IMG/VR virus record: IMGVR_UViG_3300043436_000589
Span: 1 to 29,734 of that record
Source of the DNA: a virus
DNA length: 29,734 nucleotides
Reading direction: 5' to 3' (one strand)
The position numbers and the translations under genes are program-made. Positions 10,557-27,825 of this stretch are shown here, one piece after another; the stretch's first letter is position 1, and the number at the start of each line of letters is the position of its first letter. Under the pieces are notes generated by a model. It did no database searches and was not told where the DNA came from. It was given only the letters and a program-made list of their open reading frames with translations.

Positions 10557-11057
10557 TTAAATTACCCATCCCATATAATTTGAATCCGAGTTCGGGTAAA
10601 TGTCCGAATTACTATTCGTATAGTATTCGGGGAATGTATTACCACTGAAAGCCATATATTGTATAAAACGCTCCGTGTAGTTTTGCGCTAAGTAACGTTG
10701 TTTTTCTATTAAGAAGTCCACTTCGTTTTTATCTACGTTAGAAGCGTTTTCGCTTGAATGCTTAAAGATTCCTTTGTTTGCGATTGTGTAGGCTTGAAAA
10801 GGCAAGAATTCAACCATTGCCCAATGGATTAACATAGGCTTCAAATATGTTTCCACTAAATCTAAATACGGATTCGTCAACGTTCCTGCTACAATATCCG
10901 TTTTTATTTTGTCTAGTAATTTCGTTCCCGTGTATTGTTGAATGTGAATATCTTGCGCCACTTTAATCCATTGAATAAAAGTGTCCGTGTCCATATTCCC
11001 GTTGGTAGCGGTAAACCGAACTAAATCGTCTCGTGTTATTAATAATGCTTCTGCCAT
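10557..11057 (-). CDS. Head-tail connector (gp6-like)
   Basis: A 166-residue, mostly helical protein: LLITRDDLVRFTATNGNMDT, then FIQWIKVAQDIHIQQYTG, and a long helix LDLVETYLKPMLIHWAMVEF. Helical proteins of this size just after the portal are head-completion adaptors (HK97 gp6 / SPP1 gp15 type) that bind the portal and seal the head. The start overlaps the portal stop by one base. The assignment comes from helix pattern and place. Confidence 0.7.
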   Translation of the reverse strand: MAEALLITRDDLVRFTATNGNMDTDTFIQWIKVAQDIHIQQYTGTKLLDKIKTDIVAGTLTNPYLDLVETYLKPMLIHWAMVEFLPFQAYTIANKGIFKHSSENASNVDKNEVDFLIEKQRYLAQNYTERFIQYMAFSGNTFPEYYTNSNSDIYPNSDSNYMGWVI

Positions 11058-12859
11058 TATCTAGGGTTTATAAATCCTCGGTTAGGCATATCGATTGGTC
11101 GAGTGCTTACGAGTGCATTGTTTTTAATTTTATATCCAAATTTTTCCGCTTTTGCTACGGCTATTTGTTTTGCTTTTGGAGAATTAACGTCTATTCCGAA
11201 ACGTGAATCAAACTGCGCGTATACTTGTTTATTCCAACGGTGGTGGCAATTAGCACCCCCTTTATATAACCAAATATCGTAAGTTAAATTTCCGCCTTTG
11301 CCGAAACCTATTGTACGTCCTTCGGAGTTGGTGTAGAATCCGTTAACTACGCTTTTACTCATACGCAAAATATCTTCTTTACGATAAATCTTTTTAGAGT
11401 TTTTCATTAACTTACAAAATGGACGCGTCTTACCACTTTTCCCGCCGTCTTCGCCTTCATAAACATATCTAGTAATAAACTTAACACCGTCGATAACTTC
11501 GTCTTGCTCGGACTTTGCGTTAGGAAAAGCAATTCCCGTGTTTACTAATTCAACCAAACGTGAGAATAAAGATTTTTCTCCTTTAAGGGTTTTGTTTTCT
11601 TCTTCGTCCGTGTCGTAGTCTACGGGTGCTTCGTCTATCAATAACCAATCTTCTTGCGGTTGTTCTCCGAATTCCTGTAACGCTAACGCGATTTGTTCTT
11701 CAACGCTTTGGGATTTTAATTCGGTTGCATCCGCTCCCGTTTCTTCGGTTACTTGTTCTTCGGTTGTTGCGTTTTCTAAATCCGTAAATTCAAGTGGTTT
11801 AAGAGTTCTAAAGAATAACTTTAACGCTACTCCATTAAACGCTAATACCTTGTCAAACGCTTCTAAGATTTCGTCTTGAAACGGCTTAATAATCATATTA
11901 TTAAACAAGATAAACGAGTTTTGCAATTCGTCTGCGTTACTTGAGAATCCGTTAGCCGAAGCAATACCAAAAAGTAATGGACTTGTTACGTTATGACCAA
12001 GCATTATTTTGCGTAAACATTCTTCCGATAGGTAGGTGTAATGGTCGGGCGCATCGTTTAATGGAATATCGTCTACCGTTGTTTTTGATTCTTGGTTAGC
12101 ATTAAACGCTACGATAACTTTTTGTCCTTTAGAACCCGTTAAACGGCTTAAAACCTTTTGGCTTATTAAGTCTTGTTGTTCTTCCGAAGGAACTCCGTTG
12201 TTAAAGTTAACTACTTTAGTTCCGCTGAATCCGTTTTGAACTTCATTAATTAGATAGTCGCTTACTTCTTCTTCAAGAACGGCATAGGGAATTGCGCCTT
12301 GGTAGTCGGGAAAACTATAATATTTCATCGAAGGCGAATAAGGCTTAACAAATAAGATTTCAATTTTCTCTTTTGAGTGTCCGAATGCAGGAATTCGCAT
12401 AGGTGGGAATTTACGTACTTCTGCCCAATTATCTGAATAATAATAACCCGTTATTTCGCCTTTATCGTTGCATTTTTCAGCGCGTAAAAGGTTCACGGGT
12501 ATATGATAAGCCTTTAGTATTTTATCGTGTTTATCGTTGTAATGAATCTGCATAGCAAACTGCCCGAATAGTTTTCTATCGAATACCATTTTACGAACGC
12601 AATCCGAACTAAACAAGGTCATCATTTGCGCGTATTCGTTAGGTTTACGCGAAGCATCTAAGGCGCTTAATCCTTTTCCGTATATCAAACGAGTAACATT
12701 ATTTATAATCGCTCCATTGGTTGTTGAGTTTGTATATCTATCTACAAGATAGTCAAAGTAATCGTCATTTTCTCCCCAACCTACCCAAGCATCGCGTGTA
12801 TTTTCTTGCAATACGGGTTGTTGGTATTCTGCTAATTGTAAAACGTGAACGTTATTCAT
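11057..12859 (-). CDS. Portal protein fused to a MuF-like C-terminal domain
   Basis: A 600-residue protein. Residues 1-360 form a portal: an N-terminal AWVGWGENDDYFDYLVDRY, a stem/clip region (PFQDEILEAFDKVL at about 326-339), and the NVTSPLLFGIASANGFSSNA loop at 290-309. An acidic linker rich in Glu, Gln and Thr spans about 361-425. Residues 430-600 hold TRPFCKLM (Cys482) and YKGGANCHHRW (Cys538, His539, His540), the Cys/His pattern of MuF-type head morphogenesis proteins. Portals usually lie upstream of a separate MuF gene, so this is a fusion. Its role is to be the DNA entry ring plus a minor capsid function. Confidence 0.83.
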   Translation of the reverse strand: MNNVHVLQLAEYQQPVLQENTRDAWVGWGENDDYFDYLVDRYTNSTTNGAIINNVTRLIYGKGLSALDASRKPNEYAQMMTLFSSDCVRKMVFDRKLFGQFAMQIHYNDKHDKILKAYHIPVNLLRAEKCNDKGEITGYYYSDNWAEVRKFPPMRIPAFGHSKEKIEILFVKPYSPSMKYYSFPDYQGAIPYAVLEEEVSDYLINEVQNGFSGTKVVNFNNGVPSEEQQDLISQKVLSRLTGSKGQKVIVAFNANQESKTTVDDIPLNDAPDHYTYLSEECLRKIMLGHNVTSPLLFGIASANGFSSNADELQNSFILFNNMIIKPFQDEILEAFDKVLAFNGVALKLFFRTLKPLEFTDLENATTEEQVTEETGADATELKSQSVEEQIALALQEFGEQPQEDWLLIDEAPVDYDTDEEENKTLKGEKSLFSRLVELVNTGIAFPNAKSEQDEVIDGVKFITRYVYEGEDGGKSGKTRPFCKLMKNSKKIYRKEDILRMSKSVVNGFYTNSEGRTIGFGKGGNLTYDIWLYKGGANCHHRWNKQVYAQFDSRFGIDVNSPKAKQIAVAKAEKFGYKIKNNALVSTRPIDMPNRGFINPR

Positions 12860-16550: not shown

Positions 16551-16681
16551 CCTTGACCCCGATTTAGTTTTTTATAATTCTTTGACGTTTTAAGTTGGCT
16601 TGTTTTAGATTTAGCGTGTACATTTGGGCGCTTAATCTTCGGCTTTTGAACGTGGTTAGAAGTTGCAACTTGTTTAGCCAT
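16547..16681 (-). CDS. Tiny basic protein (44 aa)
   Basis: Found by translating the gap. The ATG at 16681 lies 8 bases inside the protease gene's end, and the TGA overlaps the ATG of the Cys-rich gene. The core reads KPKIKRPNVHAKSKTSQLKT and the end NYKKLNRGQG. About a third of residues are Lys or Arg, and there is no acidic residue. The pattern KRPxVHAK...RGQG recurs in small proteins beside protease or scaffold genes of Bacteroidota phages, to my memory. A nucleic-acid-binding or capsid-internal role is plausible. Confidence 0.78.
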   Translation of the reverse strand: MAKQVATSNHVQKPKIKRPNVHAKSKTSQLKTSKNYKKLNRGQG

Positions 16682-17258
16682 TGATACCTAATAAGTTTTT
16701 AAGTTCGTTTATTATTTCGGTGGCTTCGTCTTCTTCGCTACTCATTTCGAATTTATCCGCGAAGTAACCTTCGATTGAAAAGCCTTTTACTTTGCCTTCT
16801 TTAACATCGTTCCAAACTTCGTCGTTGTTTACTTTCATCGAAATCATCCACGTACCTTTGGGTAATGAAAATCCGTAAAGGTTTGATTTGTCCTTCTTTT
16901 CGTCTTCGATTATCCACGACTCAACCACGCTTAAACCCTTTAACTTTTTCTCGTGTTCGTAAGTCGCGTTGTTTTGGTTCGAGCGCATTAAAAACAATTC
17001 ACTTGCTTTTCGGATAGTATCTTCGGAAAAGTAAATATAGTATTCTTCGTTCTTTGCGTTGCGTCGGTAAATTTGTTTATTCGGAACTAAAGCCGCACCC
17101 ATAAGAATCCGTTTCTCCGTGTCAACTTCTTTGAGTTCGATTTCGTGTTTATTTAACGCTACAAAGTTTTCTTCGATTGCAGGGGATTTAACAACGCTTA
17201 CTGCGTCTATTCCGCTTTGCTCGTCGTTTTCGTCTATTATCAATTCAATGATTCTCAT
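16674..17258 (-). CDS. XkdF-like prohead serine protease
   Basis: A 194-residue protein. It opens IIELIIDENDEQSGIDAVSVVKSPAIEENF, cited here only by pattern. ATYEHEKKLKG (His102) and VKGFSIEGYF (Ser161) are the His and Ser motifs of XkdF/peptidase S78-type capsid maturation proteases. A segment rich in Glu and Asp ends the protein. It would cut the scaffold and perhaps the capsid N-terminus. It lies after the tape measure and before the tandem pair, scaffold and capsid genes, so the head module starts here. Confidence 0.85.
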   Translation of the reverse strand: MRIIELIIDENDEQSGIDAVSVVKSPAIEENFVALNKHEIELKEVDTEKRILMGAALVPNKQIYRRNAKNEEYYIYFSEDTIRKASELFLMRSNQNNATYEHEKKLKGLSVVESWIIEDEKKDKSNLYGFSLPKGTWMISMKVNNDEVWNDVKEGKVKGFSIEGYFADKFEMSSEEDEATEIINELKNLLGING

Positions 17259-23696: not shown

Positions 23697-24151
23697 TAAC
23701 AACGTGTCATATCGTTAGGGAAGTCAACATCGAATGTCATTGCCCAACCTGCTAAATAGTTTTCAAATCGTTCTATAAAAGGTTCGCACGTAGGCGCTCC
23801 GTTTAGGTGGTATAAGTTATCCCATATGTTTCCGTGTTTAAGCATCTCAAAACAACGGTTCAATACTGCTAATTGCGTATTAAGCACGTCGATTTCGTTA
23901 TCGCTTGTCTCAAACTTTGTAGTCGGTTCTTCTTTACGTTGGCTTACGTTATCCATTGCCATAAGCGTAACATTAGCAGTCATTACGTTGTCATTAAACG
24001 TAACTTGGTTTACCATAATATGAACCAACGGGAATAAGTTTTGTTTACCTAGGTCAACGTTAAATATCGAACCCTGCGTAATGGTGTTTACCAACGGGTC
24101 GGAAGTAAAGTGAGTGTTAAGTTCGTTTAGTAAAGAGTAATATCCGTTCAT
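23696..24151 (-). CDS. Tail terminator-like protein
   Basis: A 151-residue protein. GYYSLLNELNTHFTSDPLVN leads into strand-rich IFNVDLGKQNLFPLVHIMVN, then VLNTQLAVLNRCFEMLKHG, and ends in an FDVDFPNDMTRC strand. This helix-strand order and size match gpU/tail terminator proteins, which cap the tail tube and join it to the head. Its ATG overlaps the stop of the frameshifted chaperone product (ATGA), evidence that the -1 frame is really translated. Confidence 0.65.
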   Translation of the reverse strand: MNGYYSLLNELNTHFTSDPLVNTITQGSIFNVDLGKQNLFPLVHIMVNQVTFNDNVMTANVTLMAMDNVSQRKEEPTTKFETSDNEIDVLNTQLAVLNRCFEMLKHGNIWDNLYHLNGAPTCEPFIERFENYLAGWAMTFDVDFPNDMTRC

Positions 24152-24911
24152 TTTGTTTTCTTTTTAAGTTCCATTACTTCGATTTCGTTCTTTTCGGCTT
24201 CGAAGGATAAATAGGTAAGACATTTAAATAATCCGTATTTAGTAACTTCGTCGTATTTCGTAATGTCTCCTTTAGCGAGTCCATAGATTGAACTATACCA
24301 TCCCCACTTTTTTCCAAACTGAGTTCTTGCGTCAAAGTCAAGGATTCTTCCTTCTTCATCTTTGTTAGTTCCTTCTCCATAAAGTTTAGGGTAGCGCTTA
24401 ATAACTCGCTTCCTAAAGTCCAAAAAAAAACCGATGAACTGATTGCTACGTCCAAAGGTGCGAACTTCATTAAATCGCAGAATTCAGACGCTCCTGTGTA
24501 TTCTGCTATCTCATATTTGTCTCCGTGTTTACGTATAATTGGTCTATACATAACCGCCATTGCTTTATGGAAATCGTCCCACTTCGCTAAGTAGTTATCT
24601 AAATCAACATATTCTCCGAAACTGATATTCTCAAGGTTAGGAATAAACCCGAATTCGATTTCGCCTATTTTAAACCGTTGTTTAAACTTTGGTTTCTCCG
24701 AAAAGATTTTATTGAAGTGAACTACTAAATCGTTAACGCTTGTTAACTTCATTCTAACCACGTCTTTTAATTGTATACCACAAAATATTTCTATCATTTT
24801 CTGCGCTACAAATTCTTCGTCGTTCGAGTTATCTCGCATCTTCAAGAATTCTTGGTAGTGCTTTAGTGGGATTTCAGTAATGTTAGTTGGTATTGTTAAA
24901 TCTAACTTCAT
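24148..24911 (-). CDS. Predicted -1 frameshift product (GT-like), 254 aa
   Basis: Slippage at TTT TTT (24428-24423) joins residues 1-163 of the zero frame to 91 residues in the -1 frame, starting LDFRKRVIKRYPKLYGEG. It continues through DARTQFGKKWGWYSSIYGLA and ECLTYLSFE-like helices to a TGA at 24148. The -1 frame has no credible start of its own: its first TTG is part of the slippery site. GWYSSIYxLAxGDITKxxEV-type segments are found as ordinary tail-gene products in other Bacteroidota phages, to my memory. The stop overlaps the next gene's ATG. Confidence 0.75.
24174..24911 (-). CDS. Tail assembly chaperone-like protein, zero-frame product (G-like)
   Basis: A 245-residue soluble protein. 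Residues 1-163 are shared with the frameshift product and include PLKHYQEFLKMRDNSNDEEF, FGFIPNLENISFGEYVDLDN, DDFHKAMAVMYRPI and EFCDLMKFAPLDVAISSSVFF. After Phe163 the zero frame continues 82 residues as a charged helical tail (WTLGSELLSATLNF, then ELTKMKKEESLTLTQELSLE) to 24174. In lambda the equivalent pair G/GT helps the tape measure assemble. The gene lies between terminase and tail genes. The chaperone role is inferred from the frameshift layout and position, not from a family signature. Confidence 0.78.
   Translation of the reverse strand: MKLDLTIPTNITEIPLKHYQEFLKMRDNSNDEEFVAQKMIEIFCGIQLKDVVRMKLTSVNDLVVHFNKIFSEKPKFKQRFKIGEIEFGFIPNLENISFGEYVDLDNYLAKWDDFHKAMAVMYRPIIRKHGDKYEIAEYTGASEFCDLMKFAPLDVAISSSVFFWTLGSELLSATLNFMEKELTKMKKEESLTLTQELSLEKSGDGIVQSMDSLKETLRNTTKLLNTDYLNVLPIYPSKPKRTKSK
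24385..24429 (-). promoter_or_regulatory. Programmed -1 ribosomal frameshift signal
   Basis: The heptamer T TTT TTT (24429-24423, inside nine T between GG and GG) is in the zero frame as X XXY YYZ. After a 5-base spacer (TGGAC) comes a stem-loop. TTTAGG (24417-24412) pairs with CCTAAA (24390-24385), and inside it AGCG (24410-24407) pairs with CGCT (24396-24393), leaving a 10-base loop. Slippery run, spacer length and stem all match known frameshift sites. A homopolymer sequencing error is the alternative, but both downstream frames are open and look coding. Confidence 0.78.
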
Positions 24912-24921
24912 ATTTATTAAA

Positions 24922-25104
24922 CTATTTATTCGTGTTTTTGTAATTCACTACGTGTTCGTGCGCCTTCATTAGCATTTCGAAGTGCGCAGTAAAACGTGCC
25001 ATATTGTTAAATACGATTCTAACGCGTTTGCCCGTTCGTTCGTATATGTAAGATTCAACACGTGAAATCATTACCTGCATATCGTTGGTTTTATCGTATT
25101 GCAT
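24922..25104 (-). CDS. Small basic protein (60 aa)
   Basis: Its ATG at 25104 lies 14 bases inside the terminase gene. The sequence MQVMISRVESYIYERTGKRV, then RIVFNNMARFTAHFEMLMKA, predicts two helices and a strand with net positive charge. It sits between terminase and chaperone-like genes. I do not recognise a family. Confidence 0.65.
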   Translation of the reverse strand: MQYDKTNDMQVMISRVESYIYERTGKRVRIVFNNMARFTAHFEMLMKAHEHVVNYKNTNK

Positions 25105-26251
25105 AGCTTCCGTAGGTTGCGCCTATTCCTAAAGTTTCCATTTCGTGATAACGTAGCGCGTCTATTGCGTGGTTATTAAAATCAATTGGCTTGTTTAATC
25201 GTCTTCCCGTCTTATCCGTGTCCCAAATATACGAACGAAGTTCTTTGATTAAATCAACGCTTTGATTAGTTATTAAATATTCTTGGCGTTGCATTACGTC
25301 TATTCCGTAGTTAATTGAATCCTTACCCTTGGTTACTCCTTTAATCGTTATTCCTAAGCGTCTTATTTCTTCGATTGATTTAGGTTCTGAAGAATCTGCA
25401 TATACTATTACGTTTTTTGGTAGGCGCTTCGCTATATCGCTATTTACTAAGCCGTTTTGGTAAACAATTTCGTTTACTATTCGTTGGTTATTGTATGCGT
25501 AAACTTCGACGATAGCCGTAGGGTCATTCGTATAACCGAAGTCAAGTCCGATTCCTAATAACCGTGCTTCCTTTGGAATCGTGTCTATTGTTTTCCAATT
25601 ACTAAACACAACGCCTTCTAACATTCCTAATTGTCCTTCGCCGTAAACCTTCCACCAATTCGCCCAATAACTAGACGTCTTTGCTTTGTCGCGGTTCTTT
25701 TCTATTTGCTCAACTATCGAATTGTCTAACGCTTCGTTATCCTTGTATGTAAGAATTAAGAAGTCGGAGTCGGGTTCGTCTTTAAGTTCGGTGTGTACCC
25801 AAAATTCGTTAGCAGGGTTAAAGTCCAAATAAACTTCCTTTCGTGTTCGTATAGCCAACTCGTTATAAGCGTCAAAGGTTACGTTGTTGCATTCGTTAAT
25901 ATAGAGAATGTCGCGACGCGCTCCACGAAGTTTACTCGAGTCATCTGCTGAAAAGAATTCGATTACGCTTCCGTTGGCGAACTCATAACGAAGTAAAGAT
26001 TTGTTAAACCTATCTTCAATATACCTACCCGTCCATTTCATTATTTTTAGGAAGTCCTTTAACGCACCCCGTCTTAAATGGGGGATTGTTTCCGCAACTA
26101 CGCTTATTTCAATTCCGTGTATTGATAGTGCCTTGTTAATTAAGACCGCTAAAATTGAATAAGTTTTAGAAGCCGAAGTACCGCCCTGAATAATCTTAAC
26201 GCGGTTCTTAAGTCCGAGTACCTTATTCGTTGCTGTTGTCCTCTTGAACAT
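25091..26251 (-). CDS. terL: Terminase large subunit
   Basis: 386 residues from the ATG at 26251 (MFKRTTATNKVLGLKNRVKI); the longer frame to 26308 lies over the small-subunit gene and lacks family resemblance. The ATPase half has Walker A QGGTSASKT at 22-30 and Walker B DILYINE with Glu120 as the catalytic carboxylate. The RNase H-like nuclease half has GLDFGYTNDPT (Asp237), VYADSSEP (Asp286) and NHAIDALRY (Asp364). It packages DNA through the portal and cuts concatemers. PBSX-type/Terminase_3 is the closest type. Overlap with terS of 29 bases is normal. Confidence 0.95.
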   Translation of the reverse strand: MFKRTTATNKVLGLKNRVKIIQGGTSASKTYSILAVLINKALSIHGIEISVVAETIPHLRRGALKDFLKIMKWTGRYIEDRFNKSLLRYEFANGSVIEFFSADDSSKLRGARRDILYINECNNVTFDAYNELAIRTRKEVYLDFNPANEFWVHTELKDEPDSDFLILTYKDNEALDNSIVEQIEKNRDKAKTSSYWANWWKVYGEGQLGMLEGVVFSNWKTIDTIPKEARLLGIGLDFGYTNDPTAIVEVYAYNNQRIVNEIVYQNGLVNSDIAKRLPKNVIVYADSSEPKSIEEIRRLGITIKGVTKGKDSINYGIDVMQRQEYLITNQSVDLIKELRSYIWDTDKTGRRLNKPIDFNNHAIDALRYHEMETLGIGATYGSYAIR

Positions 26252-26552
26252 CGGGGAATAAAGGAATTTCGATATTTGTTTGTTCGATTTGCTGAACGGG
26301 TGCGCCATAACCGCTATCCATTAACGCTTTGTAAGCATTTACGTCTCCTTCACGTGCTTTTTTAATTAGCGCCAAGGTCATTAAATCCTCTTGGCTCATT
26401 GTTTCGTTCTCGCCTGTAATTGGATTCTTTAATGATTGATTAACTTCTAACCAACGTCGCGCGATTGTACTTCGGTTCTTACTTCCTTTTGGTCTTCCTG
26501 CGGGGTTTCCGCTTTCGCCTTTCTTAAATGGTATTAAATCTTCTTTGCTCAT
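26223..26552 (-). CDS. terS: Terminase small subunit (DUF5681-type)
   Basis: A 109-residue protein. FKKGESGNPAGRPKGSKNRS is the DUF5681 motif found in small terminase proteins. A helix-turn-helix-like section follows (ARRWLEVNQSLKNPITGE, SQEDLMTLALIKKAREGDVN), then a proline-containing acidic tail. It would bind the packaging site and hand DNA to TerL, encoded next with overlap. The ATG follows a 16-bp gap after the methyltransferase fusion. Confidence 0.85.
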   Translation of the reverse strand: MSKEDLIPFKKGESGNPAGRPKGSKNRSTIARRWLEVNQSLKNPITGENETMSQEDLMTLALIKKAREGDVNAYKALMDSGYGAPVQQIEQTNIEIPLFPDVQEDNSNE

Positions 26553-26568: not shown

Positions 26569-27825
26569 TTATTCTATTTCTATACTTGGAAATATATTTT
26601 TAATTTCTTTTGTATTTCCCTTATAAAATACTAAAACATTTTGATGACATTTACCAACTTTTCTTTGTTTCATAAACCTTCCTACTCTTTGCGGTAGCGT
26701 ACCCAAACTTTCTATTAAAATTAATTCATTATATAATTTCATTCCGTTTTTAATAAAAATACGTTTAATGTCTTCTATAAAATTATAATAGTATCCGTCT
26801 TTATCTCGTACGTCTCCAACTGTAATAACTGCAAATCTATTTTCCTTTAAACATTTTACGGCTTTATTAAATGCATCTTCTATTATTTCTATAAATTCCT
26901 CATACGTTTCTTGGTTGCTCGCATCGTTTTCTAAATCTGAATAAACTTCCAAATCAAAATAAGGTGGACAACTAAATAATAAATCTTGTGAATTTTCTTC
27001 AATATAGTTTAATACATTTCTTCCATCATCACAAATATATTTAGCATTAAACCCTTTTACTCTTTGATTATTTAATTCGGCTTGTTCTTTTCTTAATTCA
27101 ATACCTGTAAAATTATTTCCTAAATAACTACTAACATAACCAAAAACCGTATCACCTGCAAAACAATCAAACGTATTACAATTTTCAAGTCCAAACCATT
27201 TATTTGTAATTTCGGCTAAAACGGGGTCAAGTATTGAAACGCTTGGCATTTCATTCATTACGGATTTTTCACTACTATTTGAATTGTGTAATGTATTTTC
27301 TCTACTTTCTCCAAAATCTTGAATTAAATTTTTCCAATTTTTTTTACGCTCAATCCAATAACCTTGTCTTGTATCTAAAATTGAAAAAGGAGGAATAATA
27401 AATTTTTCTTGTAATTTTTCGTGTGCTATTACTTCTTTATCTTCTTCTTGAACGCTTAAATCAACAGGTAAATCTAATCCCCATTCTTCGAGTTTATCTA
27501 CTTCCCATTCGTTTGCTAAACTATCCCAATCCCATTCTCCGAATCCTACGTTATCCTTTACTATAAATTCGTCTTTTTGTTCCTCCGTAAGGTCGTTCGC
27601 CCTAACTATTGAAACTTCGGTATGTCCTGCTTCTTTAAGCGCCTTAAAACGCATATTTCCGCCTAATATAATGTTATTCTTGTCCACTACTATTGGACGA
27701 AGTTCTAACATTTGTGGAAAGTCCTTAATTGATTTGACTAATTTCTTAAATTTTTCGTCTTTAATTAGTCGTGGGTTTTTTGGGTTCGGTTTAATTTCCG
27801 ATATCTTAACCTTCAACACTTCCAT
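26569..27825 (-). CDS. ParB-like / DNA methyltransferase fusion
   Basis: A 418-residue protein. Residues 1-95 are a ParB/Srx-like domain: ISEIKPNPKNPRLIKDEKF, VVDKNNIILGGNMRFKALKE. A linker follows with PPFSILDTRQGYW at 145-157, a motif seen in phage methyltransferases of this layout. The catalytic part has motif I FDCFAGDTVFG (219-229) and motif IV SCPPYF (285-290), giving an N6-adenine or N4-cytosine methyltransferase. The target is unknown. It lies just before terS, so it may mark DNA before packaging or protect it from restriction. The methyltransferase part looks more A/T-rich and poorer in CG than the ParB part. Confidence 0.88.
   Translation of the reverse strand: MEVLKVKISEIKPNPKNPRLIKDEKFKKLVKSIKDFPQMLELRPIVVDKNNIILGGNMRFKALKEAGHTEVSIVRANDLTEEQKDEFIVKDNVGFGEWDWDSLANEWEVDKLEEWGLDLPVDLSVQEEDKEVIAHEKLQEKFIIPPFSILDTRQGYWIERKKNWKNLIQDFGESRENTLHNSNSSEKSVMNEMPSVSILDPVLAEITNKWFGLENCNTFDCFAGDTVFGYVSSYLGNNFTGIELRKEQAELNNQRVKGFNAKYICDDGRNVLNYIEENSQDLLFSCPPYFDLEVYSDLENDASNQETYEEFIEIIEDAFNKAVKCLKENRFAVITVGDVRDKDGYYYNFIEDIKRIFIKNGMKLYNELILIESLGTLPQRVGRFMKQRKVGKCHQNVLVFYKGNTKEIKNIFPSIEIE

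Follow-up and report, generated by a model that had tools for sequence, protein, structure and literature searches.

The window analysed here, the whole of a 29,734-nucleotide stretch of viral DNA (IMG/VR record IMGVR_UViG_3300043436_000589), carries on its minus strand a gene in which an open −1 frame overlaps the zero frame from a run of nine T onwards, raising the questions of whether one gene yields two proteins at this point, which machinery would change the frame, and what the two proteins would do. A sequence-only reading had proposed a programmed −1 frameshift in a tail-chaperone gene, and its coordinates agree with ours: T_TTT_TTT is found in frame on the minus strand, the −1 ORF lacks an ATG and ends in a stop overlapping the next gene's ATG at 24151, and the two predicted products, of 245 and 254 aa, have residues 1-163 in common (Table 1).

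Table 1. Features of the recoded gene and its neighbours, in window coordinates
Feature	Position	Strand	Remarks
Zero-frame ORF	24174..24911	−	245 aa short form; N domain = residues 1-163; PHROG 32199
−1-frame ORF	24148..24423	−	91 codons; conserved KWGWY helical domain of the predicted 254 aa long form
Nine-T run (T9)	24422..24430	−	9 T in 159, 10 T in 47 of 206 sequences
Slip heptamer T_TTT_TTT	24423..24429	−	codons Phe162 and Phe163; in frame in 206/206
Dual-coding stretch	24174..24423	−	−1-frame synonymous sites suppressed in three subgroups
Possible stem 3' of slip site	24385..24417	−	present in window, not a conserved element
Next gene, 151 aa	23696..24151	−	PHROG 30964; ATG overlaps −1 stop
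Terminase large subunit	25091..26308	−	PF17288 and PF04466 above cut-off
Tape-measure-like protein, 756 aa	17280..19550	−	five PHROG tape-measure families, best 2e-20

Conservation of the T run among relatives

Scanning IMG/VR with the zero-frame protein returned 43 loci. Scans with N-part and −1-part alignments extended this by several hundred; the 80 best hits of each scan were read. Once duplicates had been removed, 206 distinct sequences contained both parts; they come from many independent metagenomes, from bacterial MAGs (three relatives) and from the isolate phage P12024S. In every one of the 206 the C part lies in the −1 frame with respect to the N part, with T_TTT_TTT in frame at the join. 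The run consists of nine or ten T and is never shorter than nine; its recurrence in an isolate and across many metagenomes of independent origin means that sequencing error does not explain it. Two observations had been named in advance as fatal to the proposal, reads with eight or ten T in the run and relatives in which the two parts are separate genes lacking a slip site; the relatives instead have nine or ten T throughout, and all retain the in-frame slip site. The 4-base overlap of the −1 stop with the next ATG recurs in 149 of the 206.

On a tree of 200 of these sequences, the eight core positions of the run show no change at all, compared with 29-58 changes at each of the ten third positions just upstream. 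TTC accounts for 642 of the 1,923 Phe codons elsewhere in the N parts and for none at the two slip codons. The slip site is thus kept across related phages beyond the needs of the residues it encodes, and the comparative evidence bears out the −1 frameshift at the T run, conserved in all 206 relatives, and shows that the recoding event in this gene is real and selected. The group of phages with this recoding is a large one, with hosts that are probably Bacteroidota.

T9 runs are depleted in the window, with 2 observed and 17.5 expected from composition. Runs of at least seven T, counted over the whole window on either strand, number 32 against 97.5 expected from dinucleotide content, about three-fold rarer.

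Two frames over the same bases

The longest −1-frame open stretch in twelve other genes of the window is 54 codons. Under random synonymous recoding the −1 frame of this gene stays open with P=0.004, and the chance of the window's zero frame remaining open over its present length is P=0.0003. Each third position of the −1 frame is a second position in the zero frame. Change at degenerate third positions of the −1 frame inside the overlap, set against change at single-coded third positions of the N part, was 4.3 vs 7.9 in one subgroup (p 2e-6), 6.4 vs 17.4 in a second (p 8e-10) and 5.2 vs 11.1 in a third (p 1e-11), the p values being one-sided and the sites not fully independent. Constraint at synonymous sites, suggested earlier as one way to probe this stretch, is therefore found there, with change about half as frequent, or rarer still, inside the overlap. 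In a distant group with an earlier zero-frame stop, the rate rises past that stop (10.4 vs 6.4, p 0.02). Because −1-frame synonymous sites are suppressed and the opening of the zero frame is so improbable by chance, both frames are selected, and the claim that the same 250 or so bases code twice is upheld as true dual coding.

The full length of the zero-frame tail is not needed, because the zero frame stops early in two members of the family: within 28 codons of the slip in P12024S, and no more than ten codons after it in locus L268, where the −1 frame goes on and the arrangement is the classic short overlap. The Gly-x-Gly conservation of the zero-frame tail may in part be the shadow of Trp-Gly-Trp codons in the other frame. 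At one further locus (L098, 2371-2496) the −1 frame meets a stop after some 42 codons and the zero frame continues for 90, either through an error or as a true loss.

Predicted structures separate the two C-termini, both of which the sequence-only reading had judged to look structured. That judgement survives for the −1 domain only: it is modelled as a set of helices with pLDDT 71-84 from residue 31, preceded by a loose linker at 19-26 (five models of varying quality), while the zero-frame tail has a mean pLDDT of 43-66 beyond residue 170. The N domain is modelled at a pLDDT of about 85. Because a straight translation of the window does not yield the fused 254 aa product, its two halves were folded apart.

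How the frame would be changed

That the −1 ORF is expressed alone from an internal start, or that the arrangement is an assembly error or a decayed gene, we regard as hardly credible. Separate expression would be favoured by the codon of the −1 frame at the slip, which is TTG in 121 relatives (the window included), and by the annotation of P12024S, which gives two genes. However, the slip codon is TTA or TTT in the other 85, and 48 of the 206 lack every kind of start codon over the first 20 codons of the −1 frame, so internal initiation cannot be the general route; an ATG in this frame near the join occurs in only three relatives. We rejected an internal start for the family on these counts. 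Assembly error is contradicted by the nine or ten T found throughout independent metagenomes and the isolate, and gene decay by the purifying selection on both frames.

The frameshift signal had been called complete, with a stem 3' of the heptamer. The slip site is in frame, the spacer is 5 nt as claimed and the stem folds as drawn (TTTAGG 24417-24412, AGCG 24410-24407, CGCT 24396-24393, CCTAAA 24390-24385), but the stem is not conserved. Within the near group its pairs vary by wobble or loss only; in the wider family many are broken and the slip site is retained, and no compensatory changes in stem pairs were found across the relatives. Its stability in the window is unexceptional (z −0.40 over 52 nt, −1.79 over a hand-picked 37 nt), the 40-60 nt downstream of the slip in the relatives show no consistent excess in mean folding z over control segments, and Rfam gave no match. 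With pairs that break without compensation and ordinary stability, the stem-loop was rejected as a conserved stimulator. The TTTAGG arm does look fixed, probably because it must encode Leu-Gly and Phe-Arg at once.

We consider it slightly better than an even bet that one gene here gives rise to two tail-assembly-chaperone-like proteins by a ribosomal −1 slip. Ribosomes that keep the zero frame would make the short form of 245 aa, and a fraction would slip one base back on T_TTT_TTT, with tRNA-Phe on both codons, to yield the long form of 254 aa, in which the shared residues 1-163 are followed by the KWGWY helical domain. We lean towards the ribosome as the slipping machine because the phage tail-chaperone slips that have been tested are, to our knowledge, all ribosomal. 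A further reason is that phage tail genes include ribosomal slips that seem to need no stimulatory structure (PMC5009743); P2-type ribosomal slips take place on T6G, T7G or T7C (PMC3931495).

The serious rival is transcriptional slippage, to which we give a tentative place clearly short of even: RNA polymerase would stutter on T9 or T10 and put one U too many (or two too few) into some mRNAs, which, when translated normally, would give the same 254 aa fusion as a ribosomal slip. The ribosomal nature of the tested tail-chaperone slips speaks against it, and we know of no report of programmed transcriptional realignment for a phage tail chaperone. What makes it serious is the run itself, always nine or ten T, together with a silent change that is never seen. 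Two-tRNA slippage would permit T_TTT_TTC too, and where Trp or Tyr follows, a C in place of the last T of codon 163 alters neither product, leaving Phe in frame 0 and turning TTG or TTA into CTG or CTA (Leu) in the −1 frame; it never occurs in the 200 sequences. This invariant, doubly silent T would fit a requirement for homopolymer length as well as or better than it fits a ribosomal slip. Homopolymers of at least eight are typical of programmed transcriptional realignment (PMC3711429), and the lack of conserved RNA structure, the floor of nine T in all 206 sequences and the depletion of other long T runs in the window point the same way. However, the flanking T's are partly forced by the coded residues (Val, Leu or Ile before, Trp, Tyr, Leu or Phe after), and on the ribosome UUU could just be more slippery than UUC. 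A more far-reaching version, in which a large, undescribed group of phages of Bacteroidota relies on polymerase slippage at a conserved T9 or T10, in place of ribosomal frameshifting, for its tail chaperones, with some 55-90 codons selected in both frames and a functional short-form tail, strikes us as rather unlikely. Because the T is doubly silent yet invariant, the choice between ribosome and polymerase is directly testable.

Known systems resemble this locus in part. Like lambda gpG/gpGT, it has a −1 slip within a small gene lying ahead of the tape measure in the tail region, a long form that would gain a domain from an overlapping ORF without its own start, and apparently no need of a stimulatory RNA structure (PMC5009743). 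Unlike lambda, it has a pure T run in place of lambda's heptamer, a zero frame that continues for 82 codons rather than ending near the slip, and several genes before the tape measure; no sequence similarity to gpG/gpGT was found. With P2 E/E+E' and its P2-like relatives it shares a T-rich slip and a −1 ORF that lacks a ribosome binding site and runs into the beginning of the following gene (PMC3931495), but the runs there are of 6-7 T (PMC3931495) against 9-10 always found here, and the overlap is 37 nt in P2 against 250 nt. Programmed transcriptional realignment is matched in the conserved homopolymer of more than eight, in the lack of conserved structure (PMC3711429, PMC5009743) and in a product identical to that of a −1 ribosomal slip.

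The protein family and its likely role in the tail

A PHROG search places the zero-frame protein in PHROG 32199, together with proteins of Nonlabens phages P12024S and P12024L (genes 38/39 and 40/41, respectively), which have the same N part and, unlike the window, a zero-frame tail of only about 25 residues. P12024S, at 28% identity, has the same T9 at the same residue with a −1 continuation. Its gene 39 is annotated from an internal ATG, and the −1 frame is open back to T9; gene 39 is thus the tail of a −1 ORF that reaches T9, and genes 38/39 are one recoded gene. In current annotation the P12024S pair (L045 9001-9695) and the P12024L pair (L283 1501-2195) stand as separate hypothetical genes.

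More distant counterparts were reached through one of the matches of the N-domain model, which in fold searches resembled only uncharacterised phage models. These are proteins of Duneviridae (PHROG 25418; Flavobacterium phages FPSV-F7 and laban6-1, Cellulophaga phage Ingeline), with profile homology from the N domain through the join but no frameshift, each being one continuous ORF of 293-301 aa. The profile of the fused product aligns to them across the join and on into the C part (probability 96%, pairwise E 2.4e-9). That of the zero-frame product aligns only as far as ten residues beyond the join, and the C part by itself gave no significant match. Alignment of the fused profile through the join supports, without proving, the fused form as the authentic full-length protein. 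Homology between the downstream 151 aa gene and its Duneviridae counterpart was not detected, so synteny with Duneviridae is positional only. Since Duneviridae have the single long ORF, the presumed ratio of short to long product would not be universal in the family. In Flavobacterium phage 6H, gp10 (L282 9900-10927) is annotated as 191 aa followed by an unannotated gap where close relatives (FPSV-F7) have one ORF of 293 aa; 6H seems to have a frame-breaking difference near its T6 run, through mutation or sequencing error.

The short and long products are most likely tail-chaperone-like proteins. By analogy with lambda gpG/gpGT, binding to the tape measure would fall to the domain common to both forms, and the domain of the long form would recruit tail-tube subunits. 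The tail-chaperone label given by the sequence-only reading holds for the architecture and for the tape-measure-like gene, which lies 4.6 kb downstream as predicted and is recognised by PHROG match, and it is favoured by a weak match to a PHROG tail-protein family (PHROG 166) in 20 of 63 members, best E 1e-5; it finds no backing in chaperone folds or families, as neither Pfam nor PDB sequence or fold searches gave a match to a known tail chaperone, and PDB searches with both models gave no credible match of any kind. Little sequence is shared among known tail chaperones (PMC3931495). That the recoding is real but yields, in two lengths, some other head-tail or neck factor is, in our estimate, improbable. 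Its case is the missing family or fold match, the several genes that separate the recoded gene from the tape measure, and the Duneviridae, which make one long ORF only. Against this, the gene has the architecture, the size and the genomic surroundings of a tail chaperone, the weak PHROG match is to a tail protein, and in phage Ingeline the single-ORF counterpart lies three genes before the annotated tape measure. Assignment of PHROG 166 to the T4 gp26/gp51 family failed, T4 gp26 and gp51 falling in PHROG 150.

The frameshift device itself is already known. New are the length of the dual-coding overlap, a long T run that is invariant and has no conserved stimulator, and the family itself; a literature search, with most subscription journals outside its scope, found no paper on this recoding. 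The proposed role offers a testable function for a protein family that has no annotated role and counts hundreds of members in viral metagenomes. The gene pairs annotated in isolate phages P12024S and P12024L are recognised as one recoded gene, frameshifted and single-ORF relatives are paired, and the overlap stands as a clear example of a tailed phage in which a long stretch is under selection in two frames.

No major tail protein was identified in the window. Its genes between 11057 and 26308 have an unusual order, from the terminase through tail-like genes to the tape-measure-like gene, then a protease (16674-17258), with the portal (11057-12859) last. At 26569-27825, a ParB-like N-terminal domain and a DNA methyltransferase domain occur in a single protein.
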